Source: Xanthobacteraceae bacterium (GTDB lineage Bacteria > Pseudomonadota > Alphaproteobacteria > Rhizobiales > Xanthobacteraceae). From it: a stretch of DNA of 64,000 nt. Shown piece by piece: positions 27,840 through 62,292 of the stretch. The position numbers and the translations under genes were made by a program. Where the stretch lies: positions 1-64,000 of the forward strand of contig JAQGJU010000055.1 of assembly GCA_028290465.1 (NCBI GenBank). The letters run 5' to 3'. Below the pieces are notes generated by a model. The model searched no databases and was not told the origin of the DNA. It worked only from the letters and a program-made list of their open reading frames with translations. Position 1 is the stretch's first letter, and the number at the start of each line of letters is the position of its first letter.

Positions 27840-27892
27840 GGGCCTGATCCCGAAAGTGGGAACCGGTTTTCGGATAAGATCATGCCCAGGAC
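27840..27892. repeat. Dispersed palindromic repeat, short form (copy 2)
   Basis: It carries the family core in reverse orientation: GGGCCTGATC, CCGAAAGTGGGAACCGGTTTTCGG (in part), then AAGATCATGCCC. It lies 31 bp upstream of the cytochrome b561 ATG. Confidence 0.72.
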
Positions 27893-47471: not shown

Positions 47472-47545
47472 GGGCATGATCTTATCCGAAAACCGGCGGC
47501 CACCCACGGATCAAGTCCGAGGGCATGCTTTTCGGGATCATGCCC
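47472..47545. repeat. Dispersed palindromic repeat, long form (copy 4)
   Basis: A 10-bp perfect terminal inverted repeat (GGGCATGATC / GATCATGCCC) bounds the same core as the short copies, with a 24-base insertion containing CGGATCAAGTCCG then GGGCATGC. It lies between leuD and the metallopeptidase gene. Confidence 0.8.
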
Positions 47546-47970
47546 TAAGGTATGCTGTCCTCGATGGTCTCGATATCGTCGTCCGACAGGCCGAAATGGT
47601 GGCCGATCTCGTGGACCAGGACGTGGGTGACGATCCGTCCCAAGGTTTCCTCGTGTTCGGCCCAATAGAGCAGGATCGGGGTGCGATACAGAAATACCAT
47701 GTTGGGCATCTGGGCCGGATCGCTGACCGAGCGCTGCGGCAGGCCGACGCCCTGGAACAGGCCCATCAGCTCCAATTCGCTCTCGATTCCCATCGAATCC
47801 AGCACGTCGTCGGCCGCATAGTCCTCGACCCGGATCACCAGATCCTCGCACAGCCGGCGGAACCCGGCCGGCAGCTTGCGGTAGGCCTCGGCCGCCATCA
47901 CTTCGATATCGGCCAAAGTGGGTGCCGTCACGGGCCGCCAGGCAAGCGGATCGGAGATCGGGTTCTGCAT
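47545..47970 (-). CDS. Metallopeptidase-like protein (minimal gluzincin, DUF1025 type)
   Basis: A 141-residue protein with the zinc motif [15 protein letters not shown] near the C-terminus (HExxH with a downstream Asp), typical of the single-domain metallopeptidase-like family PF06262. It has [20 protein letters not shown] and [16 protein letters not shown] as earlier strands. Family members are widespread and mostly uncharacterised. The start at 47970 (MQNPISDP) gives the normal family length. It overlaps the last base of a palindromic repeat at its stop codon. Confidence 0.82.
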
Positions 47971-53563: not shown

Positions 53564-53579
53564 GTGTTTGTTTTGTTTG

Positions 53580-53653
53580 AGCATGATCTTTTCCGAAAAC
53601 CGGTTCCCACCCTCGGATCAAGTCCGAGGGCATGCTTTTCAAGATCAGGCTCT
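53580..53653. repeat. Dispersed palindromic repeat, long form (copy 5)
   Basis: AGCATGATC, the core TTTTCCGAAAACCGGTTCCC, an inner CGGATCAAGTCCG hairpin, then AAGATCAGGCTCT (arm slightly decayed). It lies in the gap between rimM and trmD, inside a co-oriented operon. Confidence 0.78.
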
Positions 53654-54792: not shown

Positions 54793-56355
54793 TTATTTCT
54801 TTTTGCCGAAGCCCGGCAGGCTGCCAAGGCCTGGCGGGCGACCGCCAAGACCCGGCATTCCGGGAAATTTCGCCGGCATCCCCGGCATGGTCGGCGGCAG
54901 ACCGGATGCGCCCGGAAAGCCCGGCGGCAAAGTCCCCGGCGGAGAACCCGGAATACCGCCCGGCATCTGCTGGGCGAGCTTGGCCATGTCTTCCGGCGAC
55001 GGCGCGCCGCCGCCGAAACCCATCATCTGGGCGAGGCCGGCCATCGGGCCGCGCTTGGCGCCGCCCATGGCCTTCATCATGTCGGCCATCTGCCGGTGCA
55101 TCTTCAGCAGTCGGTTGATGTCCTCGGGCTTGGTGCCGGAGCCGGCCGCGATGCGCTTCTTGCGGCTGGCCTTCAGGAGGTCGGGAACGCGGCGCTCCTT
55201 CGGGGTCATCGAATCGATGATCGCCATCTGGCGCTTGAGCACGCGCTCGTCGAGATTGGCCGACGCCAACTGACTCTTCATTTTGGCCATGCCAGGCATC
55301 ATGCCCATCAGGCCGGCCATGCCGCCCATGCTCTGCATCTGGGCCAACTGGCTGCGCAGATCGCTCAGGTCGAACGCGCCCTTGCGCATCTTCTCGGCGA
55401 CCCGCATCGCATGCTCGGCGTCGATGGTGGCGGCGGCCTTCTCGACCAGCGAGATGATGTCGCCCATGCCGAGGATACGGTCGGCGATGCGCTGCGGATG
55501 AAAATCCTCCAGCGCGTCCATTTTTTCGCCGGTGCCGATCAGCTTGATCGGTTTGCCGGTGACGGCGCGCATCGAAAGTGCAGCGCCGCCGCGGCCATCG
55601 CCGTCGACGCGGGTCAGCACGATGCCGGTGAGACCGACGCGCTGGTCGAAGGCGCGCGCCAAATTAACGGCGTCCTGGCCGGTCAGGCTGTCGGCGACCA
55701 GCAGGATTTCATGCGGATTGGCGGCGGCCTTGATCTCGGCTGCTTCCGCCATCATGGCGTCGTCGAGCGTGGTGCGGCCGGCGGTGTCGAGCAGCACCAC
55801 GTCGTAGCCGCCAAGCCGCCCGGCTTCCAACGCGCGCCGCGCGATCTGCGGCGGCTGCTGACCTTCGACGATCGGCAGGGTGTCGACCTCGACCTGCCGG
55901 CCGAGCACCGCGAGCTGCTCCATCGCGGCCGGGCGGCGCACGTCGAGCGAGGCCATCAGCACCTTGCGGCGCATCTGCTGCGACAGGCGACGGGCGAGTT
56001 TGGCCGTGGTGGTGGTCTTACCGGAGCCTTGCAGGCCGACCATCATCACGGCGACCGGGGCCGGCGCATCGAGATTGATCGGATCGGCGCTGGCGCCCAG
56101 CATCGCGATCAACTGGTCGTGGACGATCTTGACGACCATCTGGCCGGGCGTGACCGACTTGATGACGGTGGCGCCGACCGCGTGCTTGCGGACTTCGTCG
56201 ATGAAGCTGTGCACCACTTCGAGCGCTACGTCGGCCTCGAGCAGTGCGCGCCGCACCTCGCGCAGCGCCGCATCGACGTCGGCTTCAGAGAGCGCGCCGC
56301 GCCGCGTCAGGCGGTCCAGAATGCCGCCAAGCTTTTCCGACAGGCTTTCGAACAT
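54793..56355 (-). CDS. ffh: Signal recognition particle GTPase Ffh
   Basis: Ffh binds signal sequences on nascent chains with 4.5S RNA and targets ribosomes to FtsY. It is 520 residues. The NG domain has [18 protein letters not shown] (G1), DTAGR (G3) and [13 protein letters not shown] (G4/G5). The M domain is methionine-rich ([24 protein letters not shown]). The last 60 residues are Gly/Pro/Met-rich low complexity. It is first in the cluster. Expression presumably starts in the gap to 56741. Confidence 0.96.
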
Positions 56356-56741
56356 GGTCCCAAGCAGTTTTGCGCCCGAGGGCGCATGGCGCTGTCGGGC
56401 GGGAGCCTCCGGTCTCTCGGACCGGTCGGCGGGTCAGCATTCAAGTCTCTTGCGAGATTGGCGCGGAAACTAGGGACCGGCCGGCATCAAGTCAAGACAA
56501 GCCGGACGGGCCTGAGCGGGCAGGTGTTTAGCTCGCATAAGAAATCGGCCAAAGTTCCACTTTAGAGTTAATTCAGTAAGATTGTCCGACTGCAAGGTAT
56601 ATACGTATTTGACAGTCTGGCGCCCGGCCGCGAGGTTGGGTTACCTCCTTTTTAGTGGCCTTTGTGCGGTGTCTGCCCGCACGCGCCATGCTCTGTACGG
56701 CAGCGGTCATGCCGTCATCGGGCCGCGACCCAGGTAGGTGT
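56356..56741. other. 386-bp divergent intergenic region between ffh and the kinase gene
   Basis: An AT-rich stretch (about 56555-56620) lies in the middle. On the minus strand TTGCAG, a 17-base spacer and ATTAAC could be the ffh promoter. TTGACA near 56609 on the plus strand has no good partner. No gene or strong hairpin is seen. Confidence 0.35.
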
Positions 56742-59339
56742 ATGTTCCGTTACGCTCATGCGGTTCTGGCCATGAAGGCTGGCGTGGCGGCCTGCCGCGG
56801 ACACCGCGCGCGCCATTGGATCGCGGCGGCGACGGGCGTGCTGTTGGCGGCTCTGATGGCGGCCCATCTGGCCATCGCGGCCGACAAGCCGGCCTGGCTC
56901 AATCAAGCAGAATGGAACTTCGTCCAGCAGCAGAATGCGATCAGGATCGCGCCGGATCCGGCATTTCCGCCGGTCGAGGAAATCGACCTGCAAGGCGTCT
57001 ATCGCGGCATCGCGGCCGACTATGTCCACCTGCTCGAAGCCAAGCTGAACATCCGCTTTTCCGTGGTCAATCTGAAAAATTGGGACGCGGTGCTGGACGC
57101 CGCGCGGGCGCGTCAGGTCGATCTACTGCCGGCCGCCGCCAATACGCCGAAGCGCCACGAGTTCCTGCTGTTCTCCAGCCCGCATCTGGTGCTGCCGGGC
57201 GTCATCATGGTGCGCAACGACACGACCGGCGATCTCGGCCTGAAAGATCTGTACGGCAAGAAGGTCGCGGTGGTCTCCGGCTATCTCTGGCAGGAGTTTC
57301 TCGAAACCGACCACAAAGAGATTCAGATCGTGCCGGTGCCGAACCTGACGGCCGGCCTGCAGATGGTGTCGCTCGGCACCGCCGACGCAGTGATCGAGGC
57401 GCTGCCGATCGCGATCCATTTCATCGAGCGGTCCGGCATCAGCAATCTGCGCGTCGCCGGCGAGACCGGATATTTCACCCGCCTGTCATTCGCGACCCGA
57501 AAAGACTGGCCGCTGCTCGACAGCGTGATTGAAAAGACCCTGGCGCAGATCACGCCGGCGGAAAAACGCGCGATCCTTAACAAGTGGATCAGCCTGAGGG
57601 CGCAGGCCGAGTTTCCCTGGCAGGCGTTCTGGCAGATCGTCGCCGTCATTCTGTTCGCGGTGGCGCTTCTGCTGGGGCTGGCGCTGATATGGATTCGGTC
57701 GTTACGCCATCAGGTCAAGGCGCGCACCGCGGTCCTCGACCGGCAGACCGAACGGCTGCGCGAGAGCGAGGAGCGGCTGCGCGACTTCGCCGAGGCGCCG
57801 TCCGACTGGTTCTATGAATTCAACGAGAGCCTTGAAGTCACCTATGTATCGCCAAATTTTACCAAGGTGACCGGGGTGGATGTCACCCATGTGCTCGGCC
57901 GGACTTGCACCGACTTGATCAGTTCTACATTCGGCAAGACCACGATCGAGCAGCACAAGGAGGCCTTGCGGCGCCGCTTGCCGTTTCGCGATTTCGAATT
58001 CGAGATCGCCGTGCCGGACCGTCCGCCTCTGTCGGTATCGGTCAGCGCCAAGCCGGTGTTCGACGATGCGGGCACTTTCATCGGATATCGCGGCACCGGC
58101 ACCGACGTGGCCGAGAAGCGTCGGCTCCAGGCGGCGGTCAGCATTGCCGAGGCCCGGGCCCACGAAGCCCAAAAGATGGAAGCGATCGGCCAGATGACGG
58201 GCGGCATCGCCCACGACTTCAACAATCTGCTGCAGGTCATCCTCGGCAATGCCGATTTCCTGGAAACGGAAAGCTCTCCGGGGACGGAGAGCCATAGCGC
58301 GGCTCAGCAGATCCGGCTGGCCAGCGAGCGCGCGGCGCGGCTGACACAGCATCTGCTGGCCTTCGCCCGGCGCCAGCCGTTGCAACCGGCGCCGATGAAT
58401 CTCGTCGAGGTGGTTGGATCGCTGCGTCCGCTGCTGGCGCGGGTTCTCGGCGAAGCGATCGAATTGCGCTGCGAGCTTCCGACCAATCCGATCAACGCGA
58501 TCGCCGACCGCGCGCAGGTGGAAAGCGCCTTGATCAATCTGGCGCTCAATGCGCGCGATGCGATGCCGGGCGGTGGCGTAGTGACAGTCGCGATCGACGT
58601 GATCGATTGTGATGCCGCAGTGGCGGCGGGCTCCGACTTGGCGCCAGGCGCTTATGCGAGGTTGCGGGTGTCCGATACCGGCACCGGCATGGCGCCCGAC
58701 GTGAAGGAGAAGGCGTTCGATCCGTTCTTTACGACCAAGGATGTGGGTAAAGGCTCCGGGCTCGGTCTGAGTATGGTGTTCGGCTTTGCCAAGCAGTCCG
58801 GCGGCACGGTTGAGTTGGACAGCGTGCCGGGGAGCGGCACGACATTGACCATCTTGTTGCCGCGGACCCAGGTCGCGGTCGCGATCGAGCCGGCACCGAA
58901 GCTCGAGGAACCGCCGCCGGCCCCGGGCCCGGTCACGGTTCTGGTGGTCGAGGACGATCCGCTGGTGCGCACGCAGGTCGTTCTGTCGATCCGCTCGCTG
59001 GGCTACGAAGCGATCGCGGTCGAGAACGGTCCGGCAGCACTCGCCGAACTGGCGCAGGGCCGTAAGGTCGATCTGCTGTTCACCGACATCGTGATGCCGG
59101 GCGGCATGACCGGCCACGATCTGGCCGTCAAGGCCAGCGCGGCGCGGCCGGGCCTGCGGATGTTGTTCACGTCCGGCTTTCCAGACAGCGCTGCCACGCA
59201 GAAGCGGCTCGATGCGTCCGTCCGGCTGCTGGCCAAGCCCTATCGGCGCGCCGATCTGGCACGCGCGTTGCTCGATGTTCTGGAAGGGCAGCATCCGGAC
59301 AATATCCGGGTTCCGCCGCCGGCGGCGTCGAACGGTTGA
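56742..59339 (+). CDS. Hybrid sensor histidine kinase with periplasmic SBP3, PAS and receiver domains
   Basis: A membrane kinase of about 865 residues. It has an N-terminal signal/anchor (about 25-47), a periplasmic solute-binding-protein family 3 domain (about 50-290) and a membrane helix (about 295-320). A PAS domain follows (SDWFYEFNESLEVTYVSPNFTKVTG, then PAC). The kinase core has phospho-acceptor H491 (GGIAHDFNNLLQ) and an ATPase domain (N-box ALINLALNARDAMPGG, G-boxes DTGTGMAP and GSGLGLSM). A receiver with Asp782 (LLFTDIVMPGG) ends the protein. It would sense an amino-acid-like or small ligand and phosphorylate its own receiver. The start among several Met codons is uncertain, and 56742 is favoured by an upstream AGGTAGG. 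Confidence 0.88.
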   Translation: MFRYAHAVLAMKAGVAACRGHRARHWIAAATGVLLAALMAAHLAIAADKPAWLNQAEWNFVQQQNAIRIAPDPAFPPVEEIDLQGVYRGIAADYVHLLEAKLNIRFSVVNLKNWDAVLDAARARQVDLLPAAANTPKRHEFLLFSSPHLVLPGVIMVRNDTTGDLGLKDLYGKKVAVVSGYLWQEFLETDHKEIQIVPVPNLTAGLQMVSLGTADAVIEALPIAIHFIERSGISNLRVAGETGYFTRLSFATRKDWPLLDSVIEKTLAQITPAEKRAILNKWISLRAQAEFPWQAFWQIVAVILFAVALLLGLALIWIRSLRHQVKARTAVLDRQTERLRESEERLRDFAEAPSDWFYEFNESLEVTYVSPNFTKVTGVDVTHVLGRTCTDLISSTFGKTTIEQHKEALRRRLPFRDFEFEIAVPDRPPLSVSVSAKPVFDDAGTFIGYRGTGTDVAEKRRLQAAVSIAEARAHEAQKMEAIGQMTGGIAHDFNNLLQVILGNADFLETESSPGTESHSAAQQIRLASERAARLTQHLLAFARRQPLQPAPMNLVEVVGSLRPLLARVLGEAIELRCELPTNPINAIADRAQVESALINLALNARDAMPGGGVVTVAIDVIDCDAAVAAGSDLAPGAYARLRVSDTGTGMAPDVKEKAFDPFFTTKDVGKGSGLGLSMVFGFAKQSGGTVELDSVPGSGTTLTILLPRTQVAVAIEPAPKLEEPPPAPGPVTVLVVEDDPLVRTQVVLSIRSLGYEAIAVENGPAALAELAQGRKVDLLFTDIVMPGGMTGHDLAVKASAARPGLRMLFTSGFPDSAATQKRLDASVRLLAKPYRRADLARALLDVLEGQHPDNIRVPPPAASNG

Positions 59340-59418: not shown

Positions 59419-60207
59419 ATGCTGCGCGTATTGAAAAATCTCGATCCGCGTCGCCCGCTTGGCATTCTTCTCGGCACGGGGGCGCTGACAATTGTCGCGT
59501 TGCTGTTCGTGCCGCCGATTCCGCAAAACTCGGCCTATCATCTGTTCGCCGACCAGACGACCTGCCTGGGCGTGCCGAACTTCTGGAACGTGATGTCCAA
59601 TTTGCCATTCGTGCTGATCGGCATCGCCGGACTGTGCCGCCGTCATGCGAGCCTGAGCACCACGATGTTGTTCGTCGGAATTCTTCTGACCGGCCTCGGC
59701 TCGGCCTATTATCACTGGCAGCCCAACGACGACACGCTGTTCTGGGACCGGCTGCCGATGACCATCACGTTCATGGCGATCCTGGCCGGCGCCATCGAGG
59801 AACGAGTCAGTCCGAGACTCGGCGTGATCCTGCTGTGGCCCTTGCTGGCGGTCGGCCTGCTCAGCCTCGTGCTGTGGCGGATCACCGGCGATCTGCGGCC
59901 CTATGTCTGGGTGCAGTTCTTTCCCTGCCTGGTATTGCCGCTGCTGTTCTGGCTTACGCCGGCGCGCTACACGCGGACGCAAGACTGGATCATCGCGGCG
60001 GGTCTGTATGGGGTCGCTAAAGTGTTCGAGTTCACCGATGTCCTGGTCTATTCGGCCGGCGGCCTGATGAGCGGGCACACGCTGAAACATCTGATCGCGG
60101 CCGCCGGTTGTTTCATGATCTTGCGCCACTTCCAGACCCGGCAGCCGATCGCCGTCGACAGCGCGGTGGCGCTGCCGCCGACGTCCGTCATGGCGCCATC
60201 GCGATGA
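59419..60207 (+). CDS. Alkaline-ceramidase-like membrane hydrolase (CREST superfamily)
   Basis: A 262-residue integral membrane protein with seven predicted helices. It has the five catalytic/zinc residues of alkaline ceramidases at the exact spacing known from human ACER3: S95-x3-H99, then D110 (11 residues after H99), and H220-x3-H224 near the C-terminus. The N-terminal ADQTTCLGVPNFWNVMSN matches the calcium/structural region of the family. GAGG lies 5 bases before ATG 59419. Its stop overlaps the start of a NAPE-PLD-like gene. Substrate could be ceramide or another N-acyl lipid. The fold and residues are firm, the substrate is inferred. Confidence 0.87.
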   Translation: MLRVLKNLDPRRPLGILLGTGALTIVALLFVPPIPQNSAYHLFADQTTCLGVPNFWNVMSNLPFVLIGIAGLCRRHASLSTTMLFVGILLTGLGSAYYHWQPNDDTLFWDRLPMTITFMAILAGAIEERVSPRLGVILLWPLLAVGLLSLVLWRITGDLRPYVWVQFFPCLVLPLLFWLTPARYTRTQDWIIAAGLYGVAKVFEFTDVLVYSAGGLMSGHTLKHLIAAAGCFMILRHFQTRQPIAVDSAVALPPTSVMAPSR

Positions 60208-61271
60208 AGCTGACCCGCCGCCGTCTGTTCGCGGGCCTGGCCGCGACGGCCGCGCTGTTCGGCGGAGGCGGGGCGGCGCGCGCGGTCGCGGCGCGCTATT
60301 ACGATGGGCCGGTGTCCGATCATTTCGACGGCGTGCGCTTTGTCGATCGGCATGGCTCGCCGCCCAAACCGTTCGGCCATGTGCTGCGCTTTTGGACCTC
60401 GCGATACACCGACCGCTGGCCGGACCGGGTGCCGAGCCCGCATGCGGATAAGCCGCCGGCCCGGGTGACGGGACCGGACTGGCGCATTTCTTTCGTCGGC
60501 CACGCGACGCTTTTACTGCAGACCGCCAGCCTCAATATCCTGATCGATCCGGTGTGGTCGCAGCGCGCCTCGCCGTTCGGCTTCGTCGGGCCGAAGCGGG
60601 TCAACGATCCGGGCGTCGCGTTCGATGCGCTGCCGAAGATCGACCATGTGCTGGTCAGCCATAATCACTATGACCATCTCGATGTCGCTACCTTGTCGCG
60701 TCTCGCCGCCCGCGACCGGCCACGGGTGATCACGCCGCTCGGCAACGATACGATCATGCACGCCCATGATCCGGTCATCGCGGCGCAAGCATATGACTGG
60801 CACGCGCGGGTCGAACTGGCGCCCGGCATCGCCGTGACCCTGATTCCGGTGCGGCACTGGTCGGCGCGCGGCGTGTTCGATCGCAACAAGGCGCTGTGGG
60901 CCGGATTCGTGATCGACACGCCGGCCGGCCGCATTCTTCACGTCGGCGATTCCGGTTACGGCACCGGCCATCATTTCCGCGATGCGCGCGAGCGGTATGG
61001 GCCGTTCCGGCTGGCCGTTCTGCCGATCGGCGCCTATGAGCCGCGCTGGTTCATGCAGGACATGCACATGAATCCGGCCGAAGCCGTCAAGGCGCTGGCG
61101 GACGTCGGCGCCGAACTGGCGCTGGCGCATCATCACGGCACGTTTCAACTGACATTCGAGGGTGTCGACGCGCCGCCGACGGCTCTGGCAACTGCGCTGG
61201 CCGAGGCCGGCATTCCGGAGGAGCGCTTCCGCGTGCTCAAGCCGGGGCAGATTTGGGAAATTCCGGCGTAA
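60204..61271 (+). CDS. Tat-exported NAPE-PLD-like metallo-beta-lactamase-fold hydrolase
   Basis: A 355-residue protein closely like N-acylphosphatidylethanolamine phospholipase D. A Tat signal (TRRRLFAGLAATAALF, 4-19) is followed by the domain. The metal ligands are H153, H155, D157, H158 (SHNHYDHLD), then H218 (VRHWSARG), D249 (GDSGY) and His near 310 (HHHGTF). The family signature PIGAYEPRWFM is at 274-284. It would release phosphatidic acid and N-acylethanolamine from lipids, or a related reaction, in the periplasm. Its ATG overlaps the ceramidase-like stop (ATGA), so the two are translationally coupled. The substrate in bacteria is unproven. Confidence 0.9.
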   Translation: MKLTRRRLFAGLAATAALFGGGGAARAVAARYYDGPVSDHFDGVRFVDRHGSPPKPFGHVLRFWTSRYTDRWPDRVPSPHADKPPARVTGPDWRISFVGHATLLLQTASLNILIDPVWSQRASPFGFVGPKRVNDPGVAFDALPKIDHVLVSHNHYDHLDVATLSRLAARDRPRVITPLGNDTIMHAHDPVIAAQAYDWHARVELAPGIAVTLIPVRHWSARGVFDRNKALWAGFVIDTPAGRILHVGDSGYGTGHHFRDARERYGPFRLAVLPIGAYEPRWFMQDMHMNPAEAVKALADVGAELALAHHHGTFQLTFEGVDAPPTALATALAEAGIPEERFRVLKPGQIWEIPA

Positions 61272-61363: not shown

Positions 61364-61405
61364 CTAGACTTTGATCCGATTCAACTAAATCGGATCAAAG
61401 TCTAG
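61364..61405. repeat. Perfect 18-bp inverted repeat
   Basis: CTAGACTTTGATCCGATT and its exact complement are separated by six bases. It lies 12 bp after a family palindrome and just before the end of the GyrI-like gene. It may act as a bidirectional terminator. Confidence 0.75.
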
Positions 61406-61417
61406 GTCGCCGGATGT

Positions 61418-62032
61418 TTACTTGATCGGCACCAGGACGTGGATCACCAGCTTATCTTCCGGTGTGGTCAGTGGATCGGTGACATATTCCTCGATGAACA
61501 GATCCTGCGCCTCGATGCGCTTCTCGTCCAAATGGTTGGAGATCGCCTCGTAGGTCGAATCCATCGAATCGTAAGGGCCGCGATGGGTGAAGCGCAGCGC
61601 CTTGCCGGCCTGCGAGGTCCCGACCGCGATGTCGCCGCGCGGCGGATTCTTCGGGGCTTCGGCGATCGGCACCGCGGCCTGGAACTGGAACCCGGTGTCG
61701 TCGGTCGAGGTGTAGACCGTCATGAACGGGCCGTCCGGCTTCAGGCCTTCCTTGGTCATATAGCCCTGCACCGACTTGAAGGCGTCGATCAGCGTCTCGA
61801 AGGCGGAATCCCAGTTCCCGCTGCCCTTGAAGTAGATGATGGTCTTCGGCGTCAGCGTGACTTCCTCGCCGAACGGGTCGGCGATTTGCGGCTGCGGCGG
61901 CTGAGCCGGAACCGGTTGGGCCTGCGCTAAGCGTTGGGGTGTTTGCGTGGCCGGATGCGCGGCGGCGCATAGGGCAGGGCTGGCGAAAGCCGCGACCGCG
62001 GCGATGCACAGCGCGAGGCGAAGGCTGGACAT
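61418..62032 (-). CDS. Exported GyrI-like / effector-binding domain protein
   Basis: A 204-residue protein with a signal peptide (MSSLRLALCIAAVAAFASPA, cut about ALC-AA). A Pro/Gln-rich linker follows, then a GyrI-like (AraC effector-binding) domain: TPKTIIYFKGSGNWDSAFETLIDAF, PKNPPRGDIAVGTSQAGKALRFTHRGPYDSMDSTYEAI, ending EEYVTDPLTTPEDKLVIHVLVPIK. These domains bind small hydrophobic ligands and are usually cytoplasmic, so export is uncommon. Start 62032 has GGAG 8 bases upstream. No regulator is fused to it. It is convergent with the NAPE-PLD-like gene. Confidence 0.8.
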   Translation of the reverse strand: MSSLRLALCIAAVAAFASPALCAAAHPATQTPQRLAQAQPVPAQPPQPQIADPFGEEVTLTPKTIIYFKGSGNWDSAFETLIDAFKSVQGYMTKEGLKPDGPFMTVYTSTDDTGFQFQAAVPIAEAPKNPPRGDIAVGTSQAGKALRFTHRGPYDSMDSTYEAISNHLDEKRIEAQDLFIEEYVTDPLTTPEDKLVIHVLVPIK

Positions 62033-62292
62033 CGACATCTCTCCAAGCATTTCCGGCGACCTGGAGATCGGTGCGCTCTCGAAAATGCAAATATGCTCCT
62101 AGAGCGCATTTCCGATTCAATTGTGTCAAGCTGCGCTGTGGGATGCCCGTACTCTAGCCCAATGTTTGGCCATGAGCTTTCGAAAAATTGATGTTGCCGG
62201 TGCCGGCCGCGCAATGTCTTTCGATAGCCTGACGGCGATCTGGGCGGACGCGTGACCACGACAGCGGTCACGTCAGAGCGCCGCGTCGCGCC

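Follow-up and report, generated by a model that had tools for sequence, protein, structure and literature searches.

The window analysed here, a stretch of 64,000 nucleotides, carries two neighbouring genes, referred to as gene 1 and gene 2, whose reading frames overlap (Table 1). A preliminary description had presented them as a possible coupled module acting on N-acyl lipids, and its coordinates, strands, ATGA overlap and both motif sets agreed with our check of the sequence and its open reading frames. The overlap suggests at least local co-expression of the two genes, which may be co-translated in this genome. Upstream, a hybrid histidine kinase that starts with a solute-binding domain and also has PAS and receiver domains separates the pair from genes that we take, by their sequences, to be ffh, rpsP and rimM. 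Downstream, parts of the segment 61279-61353 that follows gene 2 recur in the window at 53579-53608, 47524-47546 and 27858-27887 with 0-2 mismatches; shuffled sequences gave no such copies.

Table 1. Features at the locus, with positions counted from the first nucleotide of the window
Feature	Position	Strand	Remarks
Gene 1 (P0001, 262 aa), CREST-superfamily membrane hydrolase, PF05875-like	59419..60207	+	N-terminal helix 11-29 and predicted seven-helix core
Gene 2 (P0002, 355 aa), NAPE-PLD-like metallo-beta-lactamase-fold hydrolase with N-terminal twin-arginine motif	60204..61271	+	
ATGA overlap, 4 bases	60204..60207	+	gene 1 stop and gene 2 start
S95-x3-H99 of gene 1, putative oxyanion Ser and first zinc His	59701..59715	+	S in 51/52 and H in 52/52 aligned rows
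D110 of gene 1, equivalent of ACER3 D92	59746..59748	+	conserved in 52/52
H220-x3-H224 of gene 1, remaining two putative zinc His	60076..60090	+	each conserved in 52/52
N54 of gene 1, aligned with E33 of ACER3, the essential calcium-site Glu	59578..59580	+	profile alignment to 6g7o
H153-x-H155-x-D157-H158, putative metal motif of gene 2	60660..60677	+	human H185/H187/D189/H190; H218, D249 and H310 are kept too
Perfect inverted repeat with 18-bp arms, terminator-like	61364..61405	.	gene 2 and the GyrI-like gene converge on it
GyrI-like gene (PF06445)	61418..62050	-	right border of the shared slot
ffh (presumed), with rpsP and rimM behind	54793..56355	-	left border of the shared slot
SBP-PAS hybrid histidine kinase	56655..59339	+	79 bases between its end and gene 1

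We evaluated the family of gene 1 by sequence and by predicted structure. The Pfam model PF05875 (Ceramidase) scored 42.2 bits against a cut-off of 32.5, aligning over profile positions 22-145 of 259 only; the same model gave zero matches in 14 control genomes. NCBIfam gave zero matches for gene 1, for two of its relatives and for the Lnb_N neighbour described below. Searching solved structures with the single sequence returned no match up to E 10, and a profile of 52 aligned rows matched both ACER3 (E 0.008) and SIDT2 (E 0.012), so that ACER cannot be picked out by sequence alone. With an AlphaFold2 model (mean pLDDT 93.6), ACER3 was the sole Foldseek match at E <= 0.001 and the best VIA-align match (Z 18.3, 208 residues, 3.3 A, 14% identity), followed by Myomaker (15.4), AdipoR1 (14.9) and SIDT1/SID1 (14.7). 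GPCRs appeared at VIA Z 12.7-14.3 among the 50 rows listed, mostly below these CREST relatives, and we read the GPCR matches of both programs as general seven-helix similarity. With ACER3 first and other CREST proteins next, gene 1 is, by its predicted seven-transmembrane core and the metal-site residues it carries, a member of the CREST superfamily with a predicted fold nearest ACER3. Where seven helices had been reported, the model has seven core helices and an N-terminal helix at residues 11-29, eight in total, and the alignment columns of this extra helix are filled in 50 of the 52 rows.

The metal-site residues are nearly invariant across the 52 aligned proteins, each His and Asp being present in all and the Ser in 51. 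One relative (L007, genome G027) has Pro at the position of S95 and Ser one residue earlier. In ACER3 the corresponding residues are S77/H81/D92 and H217/H221; His or Asp mutants there lack activity and S77A keeps about 0.17% of it (excerpt of PMC9436119). The exact ACER3 spacing claimed for gene 1 holds within S95/H99/D110, where H99 and D110 lie 11 residues apart, and within H220/H224; it fails between the two groups, with 110 residues from D110 to H220 and 125 in ACER3.

The calcium site sets gene 1 apart from the alkaline ceramidases. According to excerpts of PMC6303388, the ACER site, D19WCExN24 together with A32-E33-F34, shows strict conservation between yeast and human, and E33G causes a dramatic loss of activity. 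The DWCExN motif is absent from the sequence of gene 1, and of the 52 rows, 48 have N at the position of E33 (N54 in gene 1) and the other 4 have H. With the essential Glu replaced in every row, gene 1 falls outside the alkaline ceramidases proper, and because the ACER calcium site is missing a ceramide substrate does not follow from homology.

The predicted orientation differs as well. The loops proposed as cytoplasmic carry an excess of K/R in 52 of 52 rows; without the termini 49 rows agree, 1 is even and 2 disagree, in a call that uses charge bias with helix limits from a single model. By this charge bias, the loop before core helix 1 is predicted to lie, with the zinc residues, on the periplasmic side. 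The N-terminus of ACER3 is cytoplasmic, that is, its orientation is the opposite of the one predicted for gene 1.

Together, these features make it very unlikely that gene 1 is a true ceramidase, cleaving ceramide of the cell itself or of a host, despite the PF05875 match and ACER3 as best structural match. Absence of the ACER calcium site (E33 replaced by N or H throughout) and the opposite predicted orientation count against it, as does the occurrence of gene 1 relatives in many phyla, a large share of which are not known for sphingolipids. A look for an ornithine-lipid or ceramide pathway in the own genome gave one FemAB_like gene (PF04339), beside a GDPD-type gene, and two PF13444 matches, one of them strong, with no acyltransferase among the neighbours scanned; no sphingolipid genes were present among the neighbours scanned.

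The likeness of gene 2 to NAPE-PLD is much closer, as the preliminary description had recognised from its signature motifs. Human NAPE-PLD was matched at E 3.2e-51, the next solved chain at 1.4e-8. Against the human structure (PDB 4qn9), 105 of 260 aligned columns are identical (about 40%), and the stretches SHNHYDHLD and PIGAYEPRWFM are letter-identical. All seven metal ligands (H185, H187, D189, H190, H253, D284 and H343 in the human numbering) are identical in gene 2. By these residues gene 2 is a NAPE-PLD-family protein with the ligand set expected of a dizinc metallo-beta-lactamase fold. A TRRR motif with a hydrophobic stretch behind it, read by eye, predicts export by the Tat pathway. 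A link of the pair to defence or phages was considered and dropped: neither protein had a PADLOC match at E 0.01, and PHROGs gave gene 2 a weak match to a metal-dependent hydrolase (E 0.00021). Among the top matches in the open-licence literature, we found no report with bacterial NAPE-PLD as its subject. Overall, sequence comparison supports placing both proteins in or near lipid-hydrolase families, with intact metal sites.

We surveyed how often the two genes adjoin in four sets of genomes. In a family sample of 244 genomes, gene 1 was present in 27, comprising 14 close cases (the own genome and 13 at 53-61%) and 13 at 36-41% that all belong to one genus, and gene 2 was present in 153. Both occurred in 18 genomes and were adjacent in two of these, the own genome and G046, where gene 2 comes first and its match falls in two frames. 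A named scan of a bacterial and archaeal collection found 523 stretches encoding a gene 1 relative, of which the best 80 were kept with flanks of up to 10 kb, often shorter at contig ends; gene 2 lay in the flank of one of these 80 (L101), the same locus as the second family case. Among 347 genomes of the order, 18 had a match to gene 1, of which six were weak with E values above 1e-6; among 397 genomes of the phylum, 24 did, four by weak or fragmentary matches (G589, G894, G244, G545); in both samples gene 2 lay within 1.5 kb only in the own genome. On these family, named, order and phylum counts we rejected a conserved ceramidase and NAPE-PLD operon. The view that both families are mainly animal gave way to the same survey, given the 523 bacterial or archaeal stretches for gene 1 and the 153 of 244 family genomes for gene 2.

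Two observations on gene integrity came with these scans. The only other adjacent NAPE-PLD homologue (L061 6945-7999, the same locus as L101 8860-9914) is split over two frames near residues 266/267, by an assembly error or as a decaying gene. In two phylum-sample genomes, G820 (L250 and L256) and G589 (L252 and L258), the gene 1 homologue was matched in two separate pieces, possibly a split gene.

Co-occurrence likewise does not support dependence of one gene on the other. Gene 2 was present in 5 of the 14 genomes with close gene 1 relatives and in 148 of the 230 others (Fisher p 0.045, uncorrected for kinship). These results bear on a true two-step N-acyl-lipid module, in which the NAPE-PLD-like enzyme would take a phosphate-linked group off an N-acyl phospholipid and the CREST enzyme would hydrolyse the N-acyl amide. 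The ATGA overlap, the intact metal sites of both proteins, the predicted common compartment and the second adjacency in L061/L101 all speak for such a two-step pathway. We nevertheless consider it unlikely, since the genes adjoin in 2 of 18 family genomes that have both and in no other genome of the order or phylum samples, the proportion of 5/14 against 148/230 is not that of a dependent pair, and in the second case gene 2 precedes gene 1 and is broken.

A shared chromosomal position probably accounts better for their proximity. Both favour the same slot, bordered by the divergent ffh-rpsP-rimM genes on one side and by a GyrI-like gene on the other. We fetched 20 + 20 regions, picked as best matches and gene 1 genomes and not at random. 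Of 19 gene 2 regions (from the 153 gene 2 genomes), 17 had a divergent ffh within 3 kb, 16 of them by tblastn; the seventeenth (L081) was missed by tblastn, and an ORF in the gap reads like ffh. The other two (L090 and L098) lie outside the slot, and a GyrI-like gene was present in 14 of the 19. Among 21 gene 1 regions, six adjoin the GyrI-like gene (five of these also ffh), six adjoin an Lnb_N gene and eight of a distant type adjoin neither; one on a short contig (L064) resembles the slot type by downstream genes common via L106. Gene 1 without gene 2 stands beside the GyrI-like gene in L060, L063, L065, L066 and L068 and, in the named set, in L103, L107, L110, L111, L115, L119 and L122, these five and seven loci being partly from the same organisms. 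The best 80 named loci include eight of the slot type (seven with ffh) and 11 beside Lnb_N; as the named and unnamed sets have many organisms in common, the slot counts are not independent.

Across the regions examined, both genes sit in the slot only in the window and in L061 (L101). In the fetched regions the slot usually holds gene 2 alone, and one lineage has mostly gene 1 alone. In genomes G104 and G070 the slot is occupied by gene 1, and gene 2 lies elsewhere; in G213 it is occupied by gene 2, and gene 1 adjoins Lnb_N. Other genes also enter, such as the histidine kinase of the window, which among the regions examined is in the slot only here, and toxin-antitoxin-looking ORFs in L061 and L082. 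Since the slot takes other genes too, the presence of two lipid enzymes inside it could be chance. A further explanation is that the two proteins are functional equivalents with overlapping jobs on the same acylated molecule, one being kept per slot (non-orthologous displacement). Slots holding gene 2 alone or gene 1 alone by lineage, and the weak negative association, are as this would predict; we hold it to be quite unlikely, however, because the window, G104, G070 and G213 have both genes, the association is weak and uncorrected, and the family chemistries differ (amide or ester against phosphodiester).

A tree of 48 gene 1 rows (the window and the first 47 of the 80 named loci) placed the window and 24 loci in one clade (100/99), all filed as alphaproteobacterial except L121. 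This exception is a contig filed under Candidatus Sulfotelmatobacter (Acidobacteriota), possibly misbinned, whose gene 1 homologue is nested among Nitrobacteraceae. The window branches outside the other 24 clade loci (96/68, not starred). A starred subclade of eight unites the slot loci L101, L103, L107, L110, L111, L115 and L122 with L106, and the slot locus L119 falls beside a group with Lnb_N loci. With partial support on key forks, the tree fits an origin in the slot and a later move.

In this second group the gene 1 neighbour matches PF13387 (Lnb_N, DUF4105) at E 1e-34. DUF4105 is reported to have been identified as the lipoprotein N-acyltransferase Lnb in Bacteroides (2026; excerpt of PMC12994826). 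Lnb_N genes lie beside CREST homologues of a Xanthobacteraceae/Nitrobacteraceae clade in L099, L100, L102, L105, L109, L113, L114, L116, L117, L118 and L120. They are divergent from gene 1 in 10 of these 11 loci; in L114 the gene runs in the same direction about 85 bases upstream, and in L105 the match is split in two frames. PF13387 occurs in 38 of the 244 family genomes and stands beside gene 1 in six; in a seventh genome with both (G104) the two lie apart, and in other genomes a close Lnb_N relative has no adjoining gene 1. The own genome has no PF13387 match. Being found beside relatives and absent here, Lnb_N hints at acyl-lipid biology for the gene 1 family and not for the pair. When ORFs of at least 90 aa within 4.5 kb were compared over the 80 loci, the 25 largest clusters held no conserved gene 1 neighbour beyond the alphaproteobacterial loci; the only clusters there were centred on gene 1, and we read them as its other frames.

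We therefore regard the two proteins as probably separate lipid hydrolases, a periplasm-facing CREST enzyme and an exported NAPE-PLD-like enzyme, that are neighbours through a shared slot with no obligate pathway between them. On the observed homology and conserved metal sites, gene 1 would be a zinc hydrolase, cleaving amides or esters in membrane lipids or acylated proteins, with a catalytic site that, in the inferred orientation, would open on the periplasmic side of the inner membrane. Gene 2 would be a separately evolved dizinc phosphodiesterase of the NAPE-PLD type, its export likewise inferred. As for the observed slot and distribution, the genes would adjoin here because both lineages preferentially occupy the position between ffh-rpsP-rimM and the GyrI-like gene. 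Either both genes go back to one ancestor, with most of its descendants retaining just one, or each arrived on its own; the gene order differs between the two genomes with both genes in the slot, so a single ancestral pair needs rearrangement. Should the charge-bias topology and the export motif hold, the two active sites would lie on the same, periplasmic side, where the enzymes could cooperate.

What had been called a system is thus a rare local arrangement in a shared slot, described with correct family hints. With a conserved operon rejected, the pair need not be mislabelled as an "endocannabinoid-like module". Each gene is of wider interest, with gene 1 relatives spanning many bacterial phyla and gene 2 relatives present in most family-sample genomes. 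In the open-licence literature we found no publication on the pair and, among the matches listed, no characterised bacterial example of either family. The predicted outward-facing active site and the lipoprotein N-acyltransferase-family neighbour in one clade offer testable clues. As a long shot, bacterial CREST proteins with the N-terminal helix might form a periplasm-facing class that hydrolyses acyl amides or esters and is linked to acylated lipoproteins or aminolipids; such a link would explain the Lnb_N neighbours in one clade. On this reading they would, in the other lineages, share or trade a chromosomal niche with an exported enzyme of the NAPE-PLD type drawing on the same acylated pool.

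Compared with known systems, gene 1 resembles the alkaline ceramidases (ACER1-3, Ypc1/Ydc1; PF05875) in its predicted seven-helix core, in the local spacing of S-x3-H, D and H-x3-H, and in an FWN-x2-SN motif before the first core helix. It differs from them in lacking D-W-C-E-x-N and A-E-F, in its extra N-terminal helix and in its predicted opposite orientation. Gene 2 keeps the equivalents of R257 and H321 of mammalian NAPE-PLD and departs from that enzyme at Q320 (M), W218 (I) and W344 (H), as well as in having a twin-arginine-type N-terminus. Lnb / DUF4105 (PF13387), whose relatives neighbour homologues of gene 1 in the 11 named loci listed above, is not part of the window's pair. According to excerpts of Pei et al. 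2011 (PMC3146951), two hypothetical groups of bacterial, mainly proteobacterial, CREST proteins of unknown function (groups 1 and 2) cluster with the alkaline ceramidases, and testing them for ceramidase activity was already suggested there. In the same excerpts, STRING is reported to have given no substantial functional or neighbourhood information on these groups, whereas the gene 1 relatives studied here have Lnb_N neighbours in one clade.
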